Shown: positions 4,496-34,041 of the stretch, piece after piece | Layout: each line of letters starts with the position of its first letter | Numbering within the stretch: position 1 is the first letter of the stretch | Assembly: GCF_003015185.1 (NCBI RefSeq) | Contig: NZ_CP027860.1 | Location: forward strand, 2,542,001 to 2,606,000 | Direction of reading: 5' to 3' | From: Ahniella affigens | GTDB lineage: Bacteria > Pseudomonadota > Gammaproteobacteria > Xanthomonadales > Ahniellaceae | DNA length: 64,000 bases | Notes under the pieces: generated by a model | What the model was told of the DNA's origin: nothing | Seen by the model: the letters and a program-made list of their open reading frames with translations, nothing else | Databases searched by the model: none | Translations under genes and position numbers: made by a program

Positions 4496-6358
4496 ATGAA
4501 ACGCAGCAAGCAGAGTCTGGACGACGTGGTGTACGCAAAGATCCATCCATCGATTGGCATCGCCCGCGTTGGCAACTCGAAAAAGGCGGACGGCTATTAC
4601 ATTGGCCCCCAAGTCACGCACCCAGAACCGCAGGCACCCGGCTACTACCGGGACAGTACCGGCGCGCTGAAGCGCGAAGTCGCGGAATTCCGAATCTACG
4701 GCTACAACGCGCATGGGGTTGCTGTTTGCGAGCTGACCATGGCGGATGGCATCGACATTGAGTGGCAAGTGGAACTCGCGAATCACAAGGCCGCCTGGTA
4801 CAACTTTGAGCTCGCGCTCGATATCCCCGAAGCCGCGACTGCGCCCCCGTCAACGCGTCGCAATGCCAAGGTCAAGGATCGCTTGAAGCTGTCGATCACA
4901 CCGGGCTTTCGACGAATCAGCAAGCCGGATGCGTCCGGCAAGGCGTACCGATTCGATTCCGGAACCTTCATGGATATTCCGGTCGGGCTCGGCGAACTGC
5001 GAACCGATGCGGCCGGCCGGCTGCTGGTTTTTGGCGGCCACGGCAAATCGGCCTCGATTGACAAGAAGCCACCGACCACGTTTGCGAACAATGACGGCTG
5101 GTACGACGATACGAGTGACGGCCCCGTACAGGCCAGCGTGCGCGTCGGGAGTCGCAATATCCCCGTTGCGCCCGCATGGGTGGTGGTGGCACCGCCGAAC
5201 TATGGCCCGCAGCAAAAATCGGTGCGCACACTTTTCGCACTGCTGACCGATGTCGCAATTCAGGCCGGCCAACTCAAGGCCCCTACCCGCCCTTCGTTCC
5301 AGCATGATCTGCTGCCGATCTTTACGGCGCTTTGTGATCTCCAATGGGTCAATGCTGGATTTGCGGCCGGCTTTGGCTACGGCATGCCGCAACACTTTCT
5401 GGACCCGGACTACCTCGCCAAATTGGCCGATCCGGGCAAGACCTACGAAGAGCTCAGGCGAACGATCGCCAATAGTTTCCGGAATCCGGAAAACGGCGAC
5501 ATCTCCATGAAACCTTGGCCCTGGGTCTATGGTGATGCGATGGACGTCCCGATGCCACCGTTGCAGAACGCAATGAATGCGCTGACGACGACGCAGCTCT
5601 ATCTCTTGCAGCGGTGGGCCGTTGGCGATTTCATCGCCGACTACGATCCGGCGCCGAAGTATCCGCAGCGTATCGGCGACCTACCGATCGCCGAACAACC
5701 CGAGATGCTCGATCGGGCAGCATTGGAGTTCTGCATTGCCGATGCCTTCCACCCTGGCTGCGAAATGACGTGGCCGGTGCGCCACGCCACCATGTACAGC
5801 GAGCCCTACCGCTGGCGGCATCGTCCGGCTGATCAACCCGAGCCCGATTACGGCAGCACCCTGACGCCCCAAGAGGTCAAGTCCTTCAACGGCCCACTTT
5901 ATGCGCAGTTCGCCGGCTCGATCACCCGGTGGATGGCGATTCCTTGGCAAACGGATACCGCCAGCTGCCGCTCCGGCTACGACCGCAACTACGACCCGTA
6001 TCTGCCGACGTTCTGGCCGGCGCGCGTACCGAACCAGGTTCTGACCGAGGAGAATTATCGGAAGGCGATTGATCCCAAATTGAGCCGGGCCAAACGACTC
6101 GCGGCCTACTTTGATCGAACCGACTGGGACAACACGCTTGGCACGGTCTACCAACAGCAACTGGAAAACATGGTCAAGCATTTCGATGGCCAGGGTATTG
6201 TCGAAGTGCGCCCAGGCGTTCCAGGCGACCCAGACTTGCCGCCAATCATGCAAGTCGCAGACCGCGGCGGTCAGGATATGAGCACCGCACAACGCGAGAC
6301 TGTGGATCGCGAGATGCGACGCATCGCGCGTCTCGGCACGCCGAAACCTCAGGGCTGA
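4496..6358 (+). CDS. LodA/GoxA-like cysteine tryptophylquinone amino-acid oxidase
   Basis: A 620-residue member of the LodA family, whose characterised members oxidise L-lysine (LodA) or glycine (GoxA) and release H2O2 and ammonia. The N-terminus (VVYAKIHPSIGIARVGNS) is the family hallmark. The likely cofactor residues are Cys491, in IPWQTDTASC, and Trp507, in PTFWPARVPN. The Cys-Trp distance is only 16 residues; as I recall, the LodA pair is Cys516-Trp581. No signal peptide is visible, as in LodA, which is nevertheless exported. The ATG at 4496 has GGGGAG seven bases upstream. The gene is one base upstream of its lodB partner and the two form an operon. It is shorter than LodA (about 726 residues). 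Substrate cannot be predicted. Known relatives act as antibacterial, biofilm-related peroxide generators. Confidence 0.88.
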   Translation: MKRSKQSLDDVVYAKIHPSIGIARVGNSKKADGYYIGPQVTHPEPQAPGYYRDSTGALKREVAEFRIYGYNAHGVAVCELTMADGIDIEWQVELANHKAAWYNFELALDIPEAATAPPSTRRNAKVKDRLKLSITPGFRRISKPDASGKAYRFDSGTFMDIPVGLGELRTDAAGRLLVFGGHGKSASIDKKPPTTFANNDGWYDDTSDGPVQASVRVGSRNIPVAPAWVVVAPPNYGPQQKSVRTLFALLTDVAIQAGQLKAPTRPSFQHDLLPIFTALCDLQWVNAGFAAGFGYGMPQHFLDPDYLAKLADPGKTYEELRRTIANSFRNPENGDISMKPWPWVYGDAMDVPMPPLQNAMNALTTTQLYLLQRWAVGDFIADYDPAPKYPQRIGDLPIAEQPEMLDRAALEFCIADAFHPGCEMTWPVRHATMYSEPYRWRHRPADQPEPDYGSTLTPQEVKSFNGPLYAQFAGSITRWMAIPWQTDTASCRSGYDRNYDPYLPTFWPARVPNQVLTEENYRKAIDPKLSRAKRLAAYFDRTDWDNTLGTVYQQQLENMVKHFDGQGIVEVRPGVPGDPDLPPIMQVADRGGQDMSTAQRETVDREMRRIARLGTPKPQG

Positions 6359-6359
6359 A

Positions 6360-7511
6360 ATGCCCACGACAGACTGGGATGTCGTGATCTTGGGCGCCGG
6401 CCCGGCTGGGGCGGCGCTTGCGTTGGCATTGCCGGACGACTGCCGCGTGCTGCTGATCGATCGCCCGAAACCAGAACGGACAGGTATCAAGATCGGCGAG
6501 TCGCTCCCGGGTGCAGCGCTGCGTCTGCTGGATGAACTTCGGTTGGGCCCGGCATTCCTGGCTGAACCGCATCTGGAGCGCGTACAGAGCTGGCAACGAT
6601 GGCAGACAACCGTACCGCACGCGGTGGACCCGATCCGTGATCCAGAAGGTCCGGGCTGGCACCTGGATCGTGCGCGCTTTGAACATTGGCTTCGCGACCA
6701 CATGCACCCGCGCGGTCGAATGCTGGTGGAGACCGCATCCGCGCCATCATTTGATCGGCGCGACGGTCATTGGCTGATAGGCATCGGCATCGGCAACGAC
6801 CGCAACGCGCATCGCGCGCCATGGCTCGTTGACGCCAGTGGACGCTACGCCAAGATGAGCCGCCTCCTCGGACTACCTCGCTGGCACGGCCCGGCCTTGC
6901 AATGCGTGCATGCCTGTTACACGGTGCCCTCTGGCGACGAGGATGCTGCAAATCACTTGGTCGCAGACACCGATGGTTGGTGGTATGCCGTTCGCCTACC
7001 CGGACAGACCCGAATGGTTGCGTTGCACACGGACCCGCAGCATTTGCACTGGCGTGACCTGAGAACCACGGGCGTCTGGCAAGCAGCAGTGCGCCAAGCG
7101 CTTCCGGAACTCGACCAAAGTCGTTGGCACCTGAGCAACGACATCGCCGTTTTTCCGGCCGACTCAAGCGGCCTGGATTGGACGGCGCTGCGCGCCGATC
7201 AAGGGCTGTTGGTCATTGGCGATGCGGGGCTCTGTTTCGACCCGCTGTCGGCCCAAGGTTTGTTCCACGCCCTCGCCTCCGCCGTATCGGCCAGCAGGGT
7301 CATTCGCGCATCCGGCGAGACCAGCCTGCATGCGTGGCGACGGTGGCAACAGGAAATGTGCTCGGTGACAAACCGCTATCTGATGCACATTAACGACGCG
7401 TACCGGGCGCCGAGGCACGTTGCTGACAGGCGCTTTTGGCAGACCCAGCAAGATGGCTGGGCCAGCGTCGTCAGAGCCGTCACGGGGTATATAGAAAGGC
7501 CTGCAGCTTGA
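6360..7511 (+). CDS. LodB-like FAD-dependent oxidoreductase for quinone cofactor maturation
   Basis: A 383-residue flavoprotein of the tryptophan-halogenase/geranylgeranyl-reductase type. A Rossmann motif GAGPAG lies at residues 12-17, and a second FAD motif (LLVIGDAGLCFDPLSAQG) is near residue 285. In characterised pairs LodB is needed for post-translational formation of the cysteine tryptophylquinone in LodA and acts in the cytoplasm. Position supports this: the ATG is one base after the oxidase stop. Its last 32 bp overlap the 3' end of the convergent glutaredoxin-like gene. The partner role is inferred from family and context. Confidence 0.88.
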   Translation: MPTTDWDVVILGAGPAGAALALALPDDCRVLLIDRPKPERTGIKIGESLPGAALRLLDELRLGPAFLAEPHLERVQSWQRWQTTVPHAVDPIRDPEGPGWHLDRARFEHWLRDHMHPRGRMLVETASAPSFDRRDGHWLIGIGIGNDRNAHRAPWLVDASGRYAKMSRLLGLPRWHGPALQCVHACYTVPSGDEDAANHLVADTDGWWYAVRLPGQTRMVALHTDPQHLHWRDLRTTGVWQAAVRQALPELDQSRWHLSNDIAVFPADSSGLDWTALRADQGLLVIGDAGLCFDPLSAQGLFHALASAVSASRVIRASGETSLHAWRRWQQEMCSVTNRYLMHINDAYRAPRHVADRRFWQTQQDGWASVVRAVTGYIERPAA

Positions 7512-20286: not shown

Positions 20287-20786
20287 GCGCCCTGTCTGAG
20301 ATCCTCAGCCAACCTGGTAAACGCCGCCTCGACGCCATCGCCCGTCCGGGCACTGGTTTCAAACACCGGCACGGTCTTGCGCAATTCGGTCAGTGTACCG
20401 GGCAGAATCTCCCAACGATCGATGAGGTCCAGCTTGTTGATCAACACCACACAGGCCGGATCCTGCAACAGCGACTTGGCCTGCATCATCAGGTATAGCG
20501 CCGCGCGCAGCGTGGGCTCGCGCGTGCCGTCGGCAACCAGCATCAGCCCGCTGGCACCACGCAGGTAAGTCTGATTCAGGTGATCAAGCGCGCTCTTGCC
20601 GGCGATATCCCAAATCACCAATTTGCTTGGCCCGGCGGCCGTCTGTACTTCTTTTGAGTCGACCTTGACGCCGACCGTCGTCAAGTATTTTTCGGAAAAC
20701 GTGTTCCGCACGTAGCGCGCCACGAGGCTGGTTTTGCCAACCCCGAAATCACCGAGCAGACAGATCTTGCGCGCGAAATCAGTCAT
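20283..20786 (-). CDS. Ras/Rab-like small GTPase
   Basis: A 167-residue bacterial Ras-superfamily GTPase. G1 is GDFGVGKTS (residues 12-20). The switch I region YLTTVGVKV (34-42) resembles Rab. G3 is WDIAGK (59-64), G4 is NKLD, and G5 is ETSAR. The residue after the G3 glycine is Lys64 instead of the usual catalytic Gln. That predicts slow intrinsic GTP hydrolysis, so control may depend on a partner. There is no lipid-anchor motif, so it is probably recruited by the neighbouring membrane protein. Start and stop each overlap a neighbour by four bases, with the OmpA-like gene upstream and the hybrid kinase downstream. The chosen ATG (20786) sits in that overlap. Confidence 0.9.
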   Translation of the reverse strand: MTDFARKICLLGDFGVGKTSLVARYVRNTFSEKYLTTVGVKVDSKEVQTAAGPSKLVIWDIAGKSALDHLNQTYLRGASGLMLVADGTREPTLRAALYLMMQAKSLLQDPACVVLINKLDLIDRWEILPGTLTELRKTVPVFETSARTGDGVEAAFTRLAEDLRQGA

Positions 20787-22615
20787 GACGGATCGATGAG
20801 CTCCAGGCGAACGTAAGCCGTTCTTTCGCGTATTGTAGCGCGATCGGGGCTGGCCGCCGCCTCCCATTGCAATCCAGGCATCGACAGATCGAGTTCGCGC
20901 CGCAACTCATTGCAGAGCCGGGTCGCACGGGCGAGTTCCAGCCGCAAATTGCCAGTCTCGGCGCCGCTTGGGTCGCTGCCGCCAACGCATTGCACGCGCA
21001 ACGCCTTGGTCTGGCCGGCCCAAGGCTGCAACAAGTCGGGCAGCCCCGCGAGCAACGCAGGCAGTCCATCGATACGATCGGATCGCGCTTGCTCAAAATG
21101 GACAGGCAACGCGGCCAACTCGGCGTTGACCGCAACGATCTGGGCCGGCCAACTATCGGACAAGCCCGTCAAATCAATCGAACGCGACCAGCTGGCCGCC
21201 CGAAGACGCGCACTGGCCGCTTGAATCCAAGGTCGCGGCGCAAACGCTGATAAGCGAACGCGCGTGCCATCAAACTCCGTGTGCAAATCTTCCGGCAACT
21301 CACCCAGATCGCCTAGTTCCGTCGACCAGTCCACTAGCGCGGTGCGAAAATCCAGCTGCTGAACGCCCGGCACACGCCGGCCTTGCTGATGCAACTTGAG
21401 CGCCGCCCGAGCCGGCAGACTGCCGTGAATTTCGGTGCGATCAGCGACTTGGAGAATTTGCAGCGTCGACGGCAGATCGAAGGTGTCCCGAAGGCGCTGC
21501 GCCACGATAGGACCATCGGCCGACACAAACGCTTCTTCATCAAGCGTCAGATCAATCGCATCACCGAGATGGGCCCGAACCACAGGCGCAATCGGCTCTG
21601 CCACGGGATCTCTCAGAACCGTGAACCGAACCGACGACCCGGGCCAGCTGGATCGTGCCAAGACGCGTACGCCTGGCATGTCTTGAAGCTTGGCCTCCAA
21701 AGCATCGAGCCGCCGATCCCAATGCCACAACCAGCCGAGTATCAGCAGTAGCAGCAACAGCAGCCCCGCGCCGAGCCACAGCACGGGTCGCATGGAACGA
21801 TTGTTCGCCGGGACATCGCGAGTGGCTTTCAAATCGGCCGGCGTCAACGCGTCGCGCAGGCCCGGTATCGCCTGCAACTGCGCCGGATCAAGACCGAGTT
21901 GGTCGCCGTAGTCGGCGTGCACCCGTTCCAATCGCGCCGCGAGTTCGGTCTTCAAAGACTCCGGTGGCACGCCCTGGATCCAGGCCGCGAGCTTGGCCTT
22001 TGGCCCACTGAGCACCCAAATCAGATGCTCGCCGACAGTCGCCGACGACAACTCGGCCTGACCTTCGCCAACCGAATCCCGGACAAAATCGCCGATCGCG
22101 GTCAGCATGCCGGCCACCGCATCGGCATCGAGCTCGGCCAATCCAGGCGCCGATTCGCGATCGAGAATCAAGCCCGACTCACGTTGAATCAGGAACAAGT
22201 GATCGACTTGATACAACAAGCTGTGCCGCAACGCGATGGCGGCATAGGACACCCCCAACCGACGCGCTTCCAGACGCCACTTCAAGCCGCGCCACGTCAA
22301 CGAGCTTTCGAAAATGCGGTTCAAATCGCTCGAAACGGCGCGCAAGTACTCGGTGATCGAGCGTCGGATCGCGGGCATGATGACTGGAAACAACGCATCA
22401 ACCAGCTGTTGTCGACGCGCTTGCACCGCACCGCCAAGCGCTTCCGCCACCGGCGTGGCCAACGCTTTCGCCAGTGCATCGGGTTGCTGTTGCTGCGATT
22501 GCTCGATCAGCGCTGGCAGCTGCGCGGGCAAGTCCTGCTGATGGGACTCGAGTGCCGCGAGACGGGCTTGCTCTGAGCCAAGCAGAATGGACTTGAGGCG
22601 CTCAAGCTCGCTCAT
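20783..22615 (-). CDS. trans-envelope protein: cytoplasmic domain, one membrane helix, OmpA-like C-terminus
   Basis: A 610-residue protein. Residues 1-270 are predicted cytoplasmic and contain a block (LVDALFPVIMPAIRRSITEY; then SLTWRGLKWRLEARRLG) that I recall from OmpA-type proteins encoded beside Ras-like GTPases in cyanobacteria and other bacteria. A single helix (277-298, rich in Leu) crosses the membrane. Residues about 300-480 look like two BON-type alpha/beta repeats (DMPGVRVLARSSWPG). Residues about 490-605 resemble a diverged OmpA/Pal peptidoglycan-binding domain (CVGGSDPSGAETGNLRLELA, with the D-x-x-G and N-x-x-L-x-x-x-R-A pattern). It could link the cell wall to the cytoplasmic GTPase. 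ATGA overlap with the GTPase gene. The OmpA and BON calls are moderate. Confidence 0.7.
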   Translation of the reverse strand: MSELERLKSILLGSEQARLAALESHQQDLPAQLPALIEQSQQQQPDALAKALATPVAEALGGAVQARRQQLVDALFPVIMPAIRRSITEYLRAVSSDLNRIFESSLTWRGLKWRLEARRLGVSYAAIALRHSLLYQVDHLFLIQRESGLILDRESAPGLAELDADAVAGMLTAIGDFVRDSVGEGQAELSSATVGEHLIWVLSGPKAKLAAWIQGVPPESLKTELAARLERVHADYGDQLGLDPAQLQAIPGLRDALTPADLKATRDVPANNRSMRPVLWLGAGLLLLLLLILGWLWHWDRRLDALEAKLQDMPGVRVLARSSWPGSSVRFTVLRDPVAEPIAPVVRAHLGDAIDLTLDEEAFVSADGPIVAQRLRDTFDLPSTLQILQVADRTEIHGSLPARAALKLHQQGRRVPGVQQLDFRTALVDWSTELGDLGELPEDLHTEFDGTRVRLSAFAPRPWIQAASARLRAASWSRSIDLTGLSDSWPAQIVAVNAELAALPVHFEQARSDRIDGLPALLAGLPDLLQPWAGQTKALRVQCVGGSDPSGAETGNLRLELARATRLCNELRRELDLSMPGLQWEAAASPDRATIRERTAYVRLELIDPS

Positions 22616-29634: not shown

Positions 29635-32600
29635 GTGAGTCCAACCCGCCCTCTCGGCATAGCCGTTTTCGGCCATGCCGTCCCGGAATCCTTGACGCGC
29701 CAGCTGGCGACGGGCCGCTTTGCGGGCGTCCCGGTCAAGACGCTCCCCTTTTTGCCTCCGGATGTCGTGGCGGCACCGCTCGAGATCCGCGAACACGTTC
29801 GGCTGCTACGCGCCGACTGGCCCGCGCACGACATTTTGCTGTTGTCGGCAGTCGCCGTGTTCCCTGATACCGCCTTGAGCCGGATCGACGCGGCCCGCGC
29901 GCTATTGCCCGAATGCGCCGTGCTGAGCCCCCTCTGCACCGGGCTTGCGTCGCTGAATCCGCTGGCGCCCGGCCTTGTCTTGAGTGCCGAATACGCGGCA
30001 CTGGATCGCCTTCTGGCGCACATCGCGCCCGGCGAAGTTCTGCCAGTCGAGACGTTCCAAACCGCTTGCAGCGTCTGGACTCCCGGTGCCGAGACTGCGG
30101 CCAATCCTGATTGCTACGCACTGGCCAACTGCCTGATTGACGAGCCTCGCGAACGGTGGGTCGGGCAATGCATTCCCGACGACTGGCGCGAGTTACCGCC
30201 CGAAAATCGTCTCGCGAGCCTGCGCGCCCGACTCAAGCGACACGTCAATGACGGCGGTCTGCTCGCAACGGAGACACGCTACCCCGGCCACGATGACCGG
30301 CCCGTCTACCTGCACGTGCTGCACGGTTGGGGCGGCGGCGCTGAACAGTTCGTGCTCGACTTCGCACGCGCCCGGGCATCGGAGCATCACTTGCTTTTGC
30401 GCAGCCATGGCGATGTCGGCCGCAAGTCATATGGCGAGGCGATCAGCTTGGCGTTGATCGAACGTGACCAAGTGCGGGAGCTCGGCCGCTGGCCGCTGGC
30501 GCCCGCGATTGCCGACACGGTTCTGGAGCATCCCGCGTACCGGGCAAGGTTGCAGCAGTTGGTCGCCGCTTATGGGGTCGGTCGAATACTCGTGTCGTCG
30601 CTGATCGGCCACAGCCTGGATGCGCTCCGCCTCAACCGTCCGACCCTGTTCATCAGCCACGATTACTATCCGTTCTGGCCCATTCTGCATCAGAACTTCG
30701 ACGCGCCCGACGTCGATGACCAAGCGCAATCGCTGCGGACGGCGTTACAACAGTGCCAACATCCGTTCGCCGCGAACACCGCAGACTACTGGCTGACATT
30801 GCGCAATGCCCTGGTCGAAACGTTAGCCGAGCAGTCGATCAAGGGCGTGGTGCCAAGCGCCAGTGTCGCGCGCAATCTCCAGCGAATTGCGCCTACCCTG
30901 CCCACGCCAAGCCTGATCGAGCACGGTCATTCGCCATTTGCCGAATCGCGCGCCGTCACGCCGCATGGCGGCAGCAGCCTGCGGATCCTGATTTTGGGAC
31001 GCATCAATGGCGGCAAGGGTGAATGGCTGCTCAAGCACGTCCTGCCACGTGTGACCAAAGACCACAGCGTTTGGTTGATTGGCTGCGGCCGGCCGGGCAT
31101 GCAGTACTTCGGTCAGCGCAACGTACATGTCCAGTTGAACTATGAACGCAGCGAACTGCCCGCCCTGCTAGCCACGGTGCAACCTGACCTTGCCCTGATG
31201 CCGGTCAGCGTCGCTGAGAGCTTCAGCTTCACGCTGAGCGAGCTGTGGTCACTCCGTATTGTCCCGGTTGCAAGCCGCATGGGCAGTCTGGCCGAGCGCA
31301 TTCGCGATGACCAGACGGGTATTCTGTTTGATCCTGATGCCGATTCGCTGCTGCAAACCATCAACGCGCTGGAACACGATCGCCAACGGTTGGACCGCAT
31401 TCGAAAAAACTTAGCGACGCTCCGCCTCCGCGATTTGGAAGCGATGCGCCAGGACTACGACGCCCGCTTCGGTGCGCCCTGCCCCATCGCGATTGCCGCC
31501 GCCAGTTTTGATGCGTCAGCGCCTGATCTGCTGCAGTTCGTGTCTGAGCAGTACTTGCGTGAATCCGCGCAACGCCAGCACTGGCAGACTCAGGCCGCGG
31601 CCCTGGCTGCCGAATCCAAACGGCGTGCCGAATGGGGTTTTGATCTGGATCGCCAGGTCGGCCAACTGACACGCGCCCGCGATCAAGCCTTGGCGACGAT
31701 CGTGGACAAAGATCGCGCGCTTGCCGATCGCGAGCACTGGGTCGACGAATTGGAGACCGAGCGCGCGCGCCTGGCTGAACTGCTGCAAGACGAACAACGA
31801 CAACTGCGTGATGCCCATGCTGGCTGGTCCAAAGAAGTGGACCGTCTCGAAGCCGAGCGCTCTCGCTTTGAGCGCGAGCTGAATAGCGTGTATCAATCGA
31901 CTTCCTGGAAACTGACCCGCCCCATGCGCCTTTTGATGTCCAAAGCCCGCGCCTGGCGCAGCCGTCTGGGCTATGCCATCCAACGCACCCTTGGCAATTG
32001 GCGCCGCCTGCAGGGTTACTGGCAACGCCATGGCGTCTCGGCGACGCTGGATCGTGCCCGCCAGGAATTCACCAGTGCCGAACCCAAGCTGCAACCGATC
32101 CTGCCTGCCGAACCGGTTGCGGTGGCGATGACCGACCTCCTTTTCCCGGCGCACGACACCGCCCCGGACGTCAGCATCATCATTCCGGTCTACAACAAGT
32201 TTGCTTACACCGCCGCGTGCCTCGCATCGGTCCAGAACGTGGGCGCGACGCGATCGTTTGAAGTGATCGTGGTAGACGACGGATCGAGCGACGAAACCGA
32301 AGCGCAGTTGCGCACCGTTCCGGGGCTCCGTTATCACCGCAACGCCCAGAACCTAGGCTTCGTTGGGGCCTGCAATGCCGGCGCCGAGCGGTCACGAGGC
32401 ACCTATCTCGTGTTCCTGAACAACGATACGGTGGTGTGTCCGGGTTGGCTCGACGCGCTGATCGACACGTTTGAGAAGCATGAGCGCGTCGGGTTGGTCG
32501 GCGCCAAGCTCGTCTACCCGGACGGCCGGCTGCAGGAAGCCGGCGGCATCATCTTCGCTGACGGCTCCGGCTGGAACTATGGGCGGTTTGGTGATCCCGC

Positions 32601-34041
32601 CAATCCTGCGTTCAATTATGTTCGTGAGGTGGACTACTGTTCGGGCGCGGCGATCGCGATCACGACCGACTTGTTCCGCATGCTCGGTTGCTTTGACCAG
32701 CGCTATGCACCCGCCTACTACGAGGACACCGATCTGGCGTTCAAGGTTCGCGAGCATGGCCAAAGAGTGATGTACCAACCAGGGTCGACGGTGATCCATT
32801 TCGAAGGCATCACGTCGGGCACCGACACCAGTAGCGGTACGAAGCGTTATCAGGTCATCAATCAGGCCAAGTTTCTCGAACGGTGGCAGTCGGTACTGCC
32901 CGCCCAGCCACAACCTGGCAGCGACATCGACGTTGCGAAAGAGCATCGGATCAAGGGCCGGATCCTGGTGATCGATGCGACCACACCTGAACCAGATAAG
33001 GATTCTGGTTCGGTGCGGCTCGTGAATCTGCTGAAGAGCATGGTCGAACTCGGTTACAAACCCACGTTCTTTGCCGAGAACCGCCTCTACCTCAACGGAT
33101 ACAGCGACGCCCTCGAGGCGTTGGGCGTCGAAGTGCTGCATGGCAACTGGCTTGACCCCATTACCTTGCTCCGGAGTCAGGGCAACCGCTTTCAGGCCAT
33201 TCTGGTCAGCCGCCATTATGTGCTACAGCCCTTGCTGAAGCTGATTCGCGAGTATGCGCCCCGCGCCCGCCTGATTTTTGACACGGTCGATTTGCACTAT
33301 CTGCGCGAGCGCCGGGCGGCCGAGCTGGAACAAAAGCCGGACATGCTGCGCGCTGCCGCGAGAACGCAGTTGGCTGAGCTCAGACTGATTCGCGCGAGCG
33401 ACATCACACTGGTCGTCAGCCCCGTCGAGAAAACGCTTCTGGCACAAGAAGTTCCAGAGGCCCGGGTCGAAGTGCTGTCCAACGTCCACGAGGTCGCCGG
33501 GCCTGGGCCCGCTTACGCAGAACGGCACGACCTGTACTTCGTGGGCGGCTTTCAGCATACGCCCAATGTCGACGCGGTCACGTGGTTCGTGCAGTCCATT
33601 TGGCCGCTGATCGTGCCGGAATTGCCCGGAGTACGTTTTCACATTGTCGGCAGCCGAATGCCCGACAGCATCCGCGCGCTGGCCAGCGAGACCGTCGAGG
33701 TCGCGGGCTTTGTACCCAGCATGGAGCCGTACCTGAACGGCTTTCGGTTGTCGGTCGCGCCACTCCGGTACGGTGCGGGCGTCAAGGGCAAGGTCAACCA
33801 GAGCATGGCTCATGGGCAACCCGTGGTTGCCACGACCATCGCCGCAGAGGGCATGAACCTCCAGCATGAACGGGACGTTCTGATTGCCGACGCGGCCGAG
33901 GCGTTTGCCCGCGCCGTGATTCGTCTGTATCGCGACGAAACCCTGTGGAAACAGTTGGCCGCCAACGGCCTGGCCAACATCGAGCGCCATTTTTCGACCG
34001 AAACCGCCAAGTTGACACTGAGAAATCTGCTGCCAACATAA
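29635..34041 (+). CDS. giant three-module glycosyltransferase
   Basis: A 1468-residue cytoplasmic protein. Residues 1-200 are unrecognised. The first glycosyltransferase module (about 220-590, GT4-like) opens HVLHGWGGGAEQFVLDFARA and contains ILGRINGGKG and a nucleotide-sugar segment PVSVAESFSFTLSELWSL. A coiled-coil linker (about 640-755) ends in the recurrent motif SVYQSTSWKLTRPMR. A GT2 module (about 845-1080) has IIIPVYNK, VVDDGSSDET, the FLNNDTVV metal-site block and the EDTDLAFK catalytic acid. A final GT4-like module (about 1110-1468) has FVGGFQHTPNVDA and PLRYGAGVKGKVNQSMAHG. Such enzymes build O-antigen-like or glycoprotein side chains. The start is GTG with a weak ribosome-binding site. 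No other glycan genes are nearby. Confidence 0.88.
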   Translation: MSPTRPLGIAVFGHAVPESLTRQLATGRFAGVPVKTLPFLPPDVVAAPLEIREHVRLLRADWPAHDILLLSAVAVFPDTALSRIDAARALLPECAVLSPLCTGLASLNPLAPGLVLSAEYAALDRLLAHIAPGEVLPVETFQTACSVWTPGAETAANPDCYALANCLIDEPRERWVGQCIPDDWRELPPENRLASLRARLKRHVNDGGLLATETRYPGHDDRPVYLHVLHGWGGGAEQFVLDFARARASEHHLLLRSHGDVGRKSYGEAISLALIERDQVRELGRWPLAPAIADTVLEHPAYRARLQQLVAAYGVGRILVSSLIGHSLDALRLNRPTLFISHDYYPFWPILHQNFDAPDVDDQAQSLRTALQQCQHPFAANTADYWLTLRNALVETLAEQSIKGVVPSASVARNLQRIAPTLPTPSLIEHGHSPFAESRAVTPHGGSSLRILILGRINGGKGEWLLKHVLPRVTKDHSVWLIGCGRPGMQYFGQRNVHVQLNYERSELPALLATVQPDLALMPVSVAESFSFTLSELWSLRIVPVASRMGSLAERIRDDQTGILFDPDADSLLQTINALEHDRQRLDRIRKNLATLRLRDLEAMRQDYDARFGAPCPIAIAAASFDASAPDLLQFVSEQYLRESAQRQHWQTQAAALAAESKRRAEWGFDLDRQVGQLTRARDQALATIVDKDRALADREHWVDELETERARLAELLQDEQRQLRDAHAGWSKEVDRLEAERSRFERELNSVYQSTSWKLTRPMRLLMSKARAWRSRLGYAIQRTLGNWRRLQGYWQRHGVSATLDRARQEFTSAEPKLQPILPAEPVAVAMTDLLFPAHDTAPDVSIIIPVYNKFAYTAACLASVQNVGATRSFEVIVVDDGSSDETEAQLRTVPGLRYHRNAQNLGFVGACNAGAERSRGTYLVFLNNDTVVCPGWLDALIDTFEKHERVGLVGAKLVYPDGRLQEAGGIIFADGSGWNYGRFGDPANPAFNYVREVDYCSGAAIAITTDLFRMLGCFDQRYAPAYYEDTDLAFKVREHGQRVMYQPGSTVIHFEGITSGTDTSSGTKRYQVINQAKFLERWQSVLPAQPQPGSDIDVAKEHRIKGRILVIDATTPEPDKDSGSVRLVNLLKSMVELGYKPTFFAENRLYLNGYSDALEALGVEVLHGNWLDPITLLRSQGNRFQAILVSRHYVLQPLLKLIREYAPRARLIFDTVDLHYLRERRAAELEQKPDMLRAAARTQLAELRLIRASDITLVVSPVEKTLLAQEVPEARVEVLSNVHEVAGPGPAYAERHDLYFVGGFQHTPNVDAVTWFVQSIWPLIVPELPGVRFHIVGSRMPDSIRALASETVEVAGFVPSMEPYLNGFRLSVAPLRYGAGVKGKVNQSMAHGQPVVATTIAAEGMNLQHERDVLIADAAEAFARAVIRLYRDETLWKQLAANGLANIERHFSTETAKLTLRNLLPT

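Follow-up and report, generated by a model that had tools for sequence, protein, structure and literature searches.

A predicted group III LodA-like oxidase and its LodB-like flavoprotein partner in Ahniella affigens

Introduction

The closest characterized relatives of the protein considered here are LodA, a lysine ε-oxidase (PDB 3weu, 2ymw), and the glycine oxidase GoxA, represented by PlGoxA (PDB 6byw). The cofactor of LodA is formed by C516 and W581, and a Cys together with a Trp is given as the cofactor pair of LodA-like proteins in general (PMC4417212). According to PMC7876137, the first hydroxyl group on the Trp of LodA and GoxA is thought to be introduced autocatalytically, with a conserved Asp participating, although cysteine tryptophylquinone (CTQ) is still present when Asp678 of GoxA is mutated; the second oxygen and the crosslink are introduced in the flavoprotein step. 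The mature quinone oxidizes the amine, releasing ammonium and H2O2 (PMC4699246). In the 2015 survey of Campillo-Brocal et al. (PMC4417212) all catalase-domain fusions were assigned to group III, among them the tabulated LodA-like proteins of Oceanospirillum beijerinckii DSM 7166 and Streptomyces afghaniensis 772; the catalase-like fusion occurs in some group III members only and does not define the group, to which the third LodA-like gene of M. mediterranea also belongs. A lod/gox double mutant of M. mediterranea showed neither lysine nor glycine oxidase activity (PMC3948610).

In the literature searched (most subscription journals lay outside the search), no characterized group III enzyme was found and no group III substrate was stated; the passages available of PMC12172471 and PMC8929069 mention LodA-like proteins and contain no enzyme assay. 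The present analysis concerns a gene pair in a stretch of 64,000 nucleotides from Ahniella affigens (contig NZ_CP027860.1, positions 2,542,001 to 2,606,000), called the window in the following; all coordinates of the pair refer to this window. An earlier note on this DNA had described a LodA/LodB-type pair whose candidate cofactor residues lie unusually close together.

Sequence sets and methods

The family alignment consisted of 126 rows, namely the window protein, two paralogs from its own genome, 42 rows from profile searches and 81 rows from a scan. The profile searches gave matches in 2 of 10 genomes for the family, 26 of 299 for the order, 10 of 369 for the class and 12 of 398 for the phylum, the sets overlapping in part. 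The scan rows cover 80 named loci, the best 80 of 337 relatives retrieved with two patterns, one of them FHPGCEM; one frame is split in two. This frame (L112:5944-7845) is LodA-like and lies in two pieces on a metagenome-derived contig; its N-terminal half does not cover the Cys and Trp columns, and both halves were kept outside the tree. Before counting, L001-L004 (copies of the organism's own loci), L026 and L052 (second, partial stretches) as well as L008 and L029 (identical to scan rows) were dropped. Group III counts refer to 90 rows (89 clade rows plus one half of L112), set against 35 other rows. Ten group III rows from outside the scan are reported separately; over the core, one of these ten, L032, has the same sequence as scan row L117.

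The tree of 124 rows was calculated by a quick method with SH-aLRT as its only support measure, is midpoint-rooted and contains ten rows flagged as long. An AlphaFold2 model of the window protein was built from a 40-row alignment (mean pLDDT 83.8, pTM 0.89) and compared with solved structures by VIA-align. Codon coordinates of pocket and cofactor residues were calculated from the residue numbers.

The gene pair

The first gene (4496..6358, + strand) encodes a protein of 620 residues, a predicted LodA-like CTQ oxidase, and the second (6360..7511, + strand) a protein of 383 residues, a LodB/GoxB-like FAD monooxygenase and predicted CTQ maturase, with a single base between the stop of the former and the start of the latter. 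In the 620-residue protein the Pfam match to LodA_N (274.4 bits, cut-off 26.3) starts at residue 17, and that to LodA_C (145.6 bits, cut-off 25) ends on Trp507, scores which place its assignment to the LodA family far beyond chance. Both domains, together with the adjacent LodB-like flavoprotein gene, bear out the pair as previously described. No signal peptide was seen by eye in the 620-residue protein. All 11 of the 11 PDB sequences matching it are GoxA or LodA. The best NCBIfam model is GoxA (NF038173), with 386.6 bits against an equivalog cut-off of 750; the LodA model (NF038172) scores 156.2 bits against a cut-off of 600; strict membership in either GoxA or LodA was consequently rejected, neither cut-off being reached.

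Two further LodA-like paralogs (L006, L007) are present in the same genome, at C1:4051742-4052176 (−) and C1:2482473-2482787 (+). In the tree both stand well apart from the window protein, one with a Cys–Trp spacing of 24 and the motif WSWPA, the other with a spacing of 5 and WWPA, and both adjoin a LodB-like match, which in one case is weak and partial (24.2 bits). Three LodA-like copies were recorded in only two bacteria in the 2015 survey (PMC4417212).

Assignment to group III

In the tree the window protein belongs to a clade of 31 rows (SH-aLRT 100), itself part of a larger one comprising 89 rows (SH-aLRT 99). The larger clade includes the proteins of O. beijerinckii DSM 7166 (L116) and S. 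afghaniensis 772 (L104), which were matched to the published proteins by strain and size rather than by locus tag: the open frames measure 977 and 1024 residues, the published sizes being 973 and 999 (PMC4417212). The lodB-like gene of O. beijerinckii is said to be split in two in the same survey, and in agreement with this a LodB-like frame of 293 residues begins 281 bases after the oxidase frame of L116. The best reading of these alignments is that the window protein is a group III LodA-like protein, placed by two anchors identified through strain and size within a clade whose four parts branch in an order that the tree leaves without resolution. The earlier suggestion of a subgroup distinct from LodA, which may have its own substrate, is thus upheld in the form of group III, a type published in 2015.

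Members of the 31-row subclade share 62-78% identity with the window protein (the scan being limited to the best 80 of 337 relatives), and 29 of the 31 open frames span 610-674 residues, the other two measuring 776 and 848 from stop to stop. With LodA_N starting at residue 17, the window protein lacks the fused catalase-like domain and the N-terminal extension by which the catalase-fused members of the group differ from it. Among the N-terminal parts of five relatives, Pfam Catalase gave weak matches below its cut-off for L116 (21.4 bits) and L085 (15.7 bits), and was absent from L104, L107 and L124.

With group III, whose published members include O. beijerinckii H579DRAFT_00201 and Marme_2396, the window protein shares the clade (through the two matched rows L104 and L116), a Phe before the cofactor Trp, a Cys–Trp spacing of 16-20, the HPGC motif and a LodB-like partner. 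Immediately before the cofactor Trp, 90 of 90 group III rows carry a Phe (full FWPA in 88), whereas the 35 others have W in 17, S in 16, F in 1 and A in 1. His419 (codon 5750..5752, + strand) is found in 90/90 group III rows versus 5/35, and Cys422 (codon 5759..5761, + strand) in 90/90 versus 0/35, counts that are biased in the scan rows because one of the two scan patterns was FHPGCEM. In the ten non-scan group III rows, the window protein included, Phe506, His419 and Cys422 are each present in 10/10.

Outside the 89-row clade, beside group III, branches L023, which at 1185 bits was the sole row among ten tested to exceed the GoxA equivalog cut-off, with a spacing of 15 and the motif WWPA; its exact place is unsure since its branch is long. 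Three other rows (L025, L048, L049) form a separate clade (SH-aLRT 99) that combines a GoxA-type HPG motif with a Cys–Trp spacing of just 5.

The active-site pocket and the substrate

The earlier note proposed modeling against the LodA structure; the fold of the AlphaFold2 model matches LodA and, with higher best scores, GoxA. Entries of PlGoxA were aligned to the model with Z 32.7-45.7 (6byw_D: 45.3 over 562 residues, 2.8 Å) and entries of LodA with Z 29.0-36.3 (2ymw_B: 36.3 over 500 residues, 3.3 Å). The next match, a chain of quinohemoprotein amine dehydrogenase, reached Z 6.3, with the remainder lower or equal; this likeness of the model may reflect only a common arrangement.

PDB titles document solved structures of PlGoxA mutants at F316, H583, D678, Y766 and H767. 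At the first three of these positions the window protein carries Phe196 (codon 5081..5083, + strand), His419 of the HPG motif and Asp487 (codon 5954..5956, + strand). LodA has Tyr211, Cys448 and Asp512 at the same positions (counted on 3weu), so that it shares the Asp with the window protein and differs in the other two; the Asp487 column is invariant (125 of 125 rows). No Tyr-His, and hence no Y766-H767 loop, is present towards the C-terminus of the window protein. In PlGoxA, residues 766 and 767 are contributed by the neighboring subunit. The corresponding motif YHAE is present in L023 and in 0/90 group III rows. The core of the pocket is accordingly GoxA-like, the Phe/His/Asp set being kept, but another part differs, the Y766-H767 loop being missing. 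Further likenesses to PlGoxA are the positions of the cofactor Cys and Trp and the short loop between them, whereas the identity in the structure alignment is only about 30%, PlGoxA comprises 816 residues versus 620, the GoxA Trp before the cofactor Trp is replaced by Phe, and Cys422 occupies the position of GoxA Val586.

A strict glycine oxidase, functionally equivalent to GoxA, is one possible, if rather doubtful, interpretation. GoxA provides both the best NCBIfam model and the best solved match, its three pocket residues are kept, and L023, which passes the GoxA cut-off, branches beside group III on its long and unsurely placed branch; yet the window protein scores far below that cut-off, and the YHAE motif of L023 is missing throughout group III. 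Glycine is also mildly disfavored by the M. mediterranea double mutant, which carries a group III gene and was devoid of glycine oxidase activity (PMC3948610), an argument that counts only if this gene is expressed. As a single first guess at the substrate glycine may nevertheless be named tentatively, on account of the GoxA Phe316/His583/Asp678 set and with the missing Tyr766-His767 loop as counterargument. On the other hand, group III might constitute a third catalytic type, in which HPGC (with Cys422 three residues after the His), Phe506 and the missing Tyr766-His767 loop would reshape the pocket for a substrate that is neither glycine nor lysine, and in which Cys422 may join in cofactor formation or catalysis; this proposal is speculative and is viewed with similar reserve.

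The partner flavoprotein and the gene neighborhood

The 383-residue protein matches Pfam FAD_binding_3 with 25.4 bits, just over the cut-off of 22, and its best NCBIfam models are LodB (NF038171; 155.2 bits, E 2.4e-45, cut-off 400), GoxB (NF038174; 145.5 bits, cut-off 400) and QhpG. It resembles these maturases as an FAD-binding monooxygenase encoded next to its oxidase, but it stays below the cut-off of every one of these equivalogs and is therefore assigned to the superfamily only, as a relative rather than an equivalog.

At 79 of 81 loci (the scan comprising the best 80 of 337 relatives) the oxidase gene is followed on its own strand by a LodB-like gene, recognized at 64 loci by ORF search within 500 bases and at a further 15 by tblastn; the two loci without it, L060 and L095, run out at a contig edge. 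Among the 25 largest neighbor clusters listed for the 81 loci, the largest is this LodB-like gene, the second and third consist of minus-strand frames overlying it (36 and 15 loci), the fourth comprises 9 loci at scattered places, and the remaining ones at most 7 loci. Kept neighbors that might point to a substrate or a peroxide-handling partner were sought among these clusters, and no other family recurs at a constant position beyond a few loci. Elsewhere in the window, 203-2482 (−) encodes a nitric oxide reductase with NorB cytochrome c-like and COX1 domains in a single chain, 29635-34041 (+) a protein of 1468 residues with several glycosyltransferase domains in a single chain, and 20783-22615 (−) an open reading frame of 610 residues with no Pfam match at E 0.01.

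That the window protein is a non-enzymatic or inactive relative appears very improbable. Apart from the fact that no characterized group III enzyme was found in the literature searched, nothing speaks for it, while the Cys, Trp and Asp are invariant in the alignment and the maturase gene accompanies the oxidase at nearly all loci, in records that bear names from five phyla and include metagenome bins.

Cofactor residues and their spacing

The residues named in the earlier note are present as described: Cys491 (codon 5966..5968, + strand), the predicted CTQ cysteine, and Trp507 (codon 6014..6016, + strand), the predicted CTQ tryptophan, lie 16 apart, the latter preceded by Phe506 in the context PTFWPARVPN, and the LodA pair C516/W581 given there is correct (PMC4417212; numbering counted on 3weu). 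Cys491 aligns with LodA C516 and PlGoxA residue 682, and Trp507 with PlGoxA residue 697 and, via the family alignment, with LodA W581. An alignment that places the cofactor Trp at a position missing here had been named as refuting evidence; it was run, and Trp507 occupies the column. PlGoxA residues 682 and 697, which we take to be its cofactor pair, here on the strength of their alignment with LodA C516/W581, are 15 apart as counted from the alignments. In LodA (3weu) the two residues are 65 apart, with WWP at the cofactor Trp.

The cofactor Cys and Trp are invariant (125 of 125 rows covering both columns, the scan part being the best 80 of 337 relatives), and the distance between them ranges from 5 to 37, which identifies the stretch as a loop of variable length. 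The same range is spanned by the 42 profile-search rows, where 16 is the commonest value (8/42). Within group III the spacing is 16 in 86 of 90 rows, 20 in three and 19 in one; in the ten non-scan rows it is 16 in nine and 20 in one. Judged from these sequences, it is LodA that sits at the long end of the loop lengths. The model is unsure precisely at this loop, residues 493-509 having pLDDT below 50.

Along these lines, neither the claim of an unusually close Cys and Trp nor that of a replaced cofactor Trp is sustained, and the short spacing was rejected as an abnormal trait, 16 being normal within the clade of the window protein. The Phe-Trp-Pro-Ala segment was correctly noticed, and the variation concerns the position preceding the Trp; Phe506 is a mark of the group, so the cofactor Trp itself is unaffected. 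A changed cofactor, for which the 65-residue distance and the Trp-Trp-Pro of LodA could be cited, is thus negligibly probable in view of PlGoxA, the family range, the group III spacing and the universally kept Trp.

Proposed function

The gene pair very probably encodes a CTQ oxidase of group III that acts on a primary amine or an amino acid, releases H2O2 and is matured by its LodB-like partner. The 620-residue protein would be the apo-oxidase of an operon of the lodA-lodB type, as in LodA, and the 383-residue flavoprotein would help to oxygenate Trp507, which would then be crosslinked to Cys491 to give CTQ. The mature enzyme would use O2 to oxidize the primary amine of a small substrate (amino acid or amine), with ammonia, H2O2 and either an aldehyde or a keto acid as products. 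Family, fold, the kept Cys, Trp and Asp, the GoxA-type Phe and His, the partner gene and the group III placement are directly supported. We infer CTQ formation, the role of the flavoprotein, the oxidase chemistry and H2O2 release in the window protein by analogy with the described enzymes, as the literature searched contained no characterized one from group III.

The initial observation is sound and its explanation ordinary: a LodA-like oxidase of group III, a type known since 2015, together with its maturase. In the LodA-like family, an odd cofactor cannot be deduced from the Cys–Trp spacing. A Phe before the cofactor Trp, the HPGC motif and the missing YHAE loop, on the other hand, provide markers for recognizing and assaying the uncharacterized oxidases of group III.
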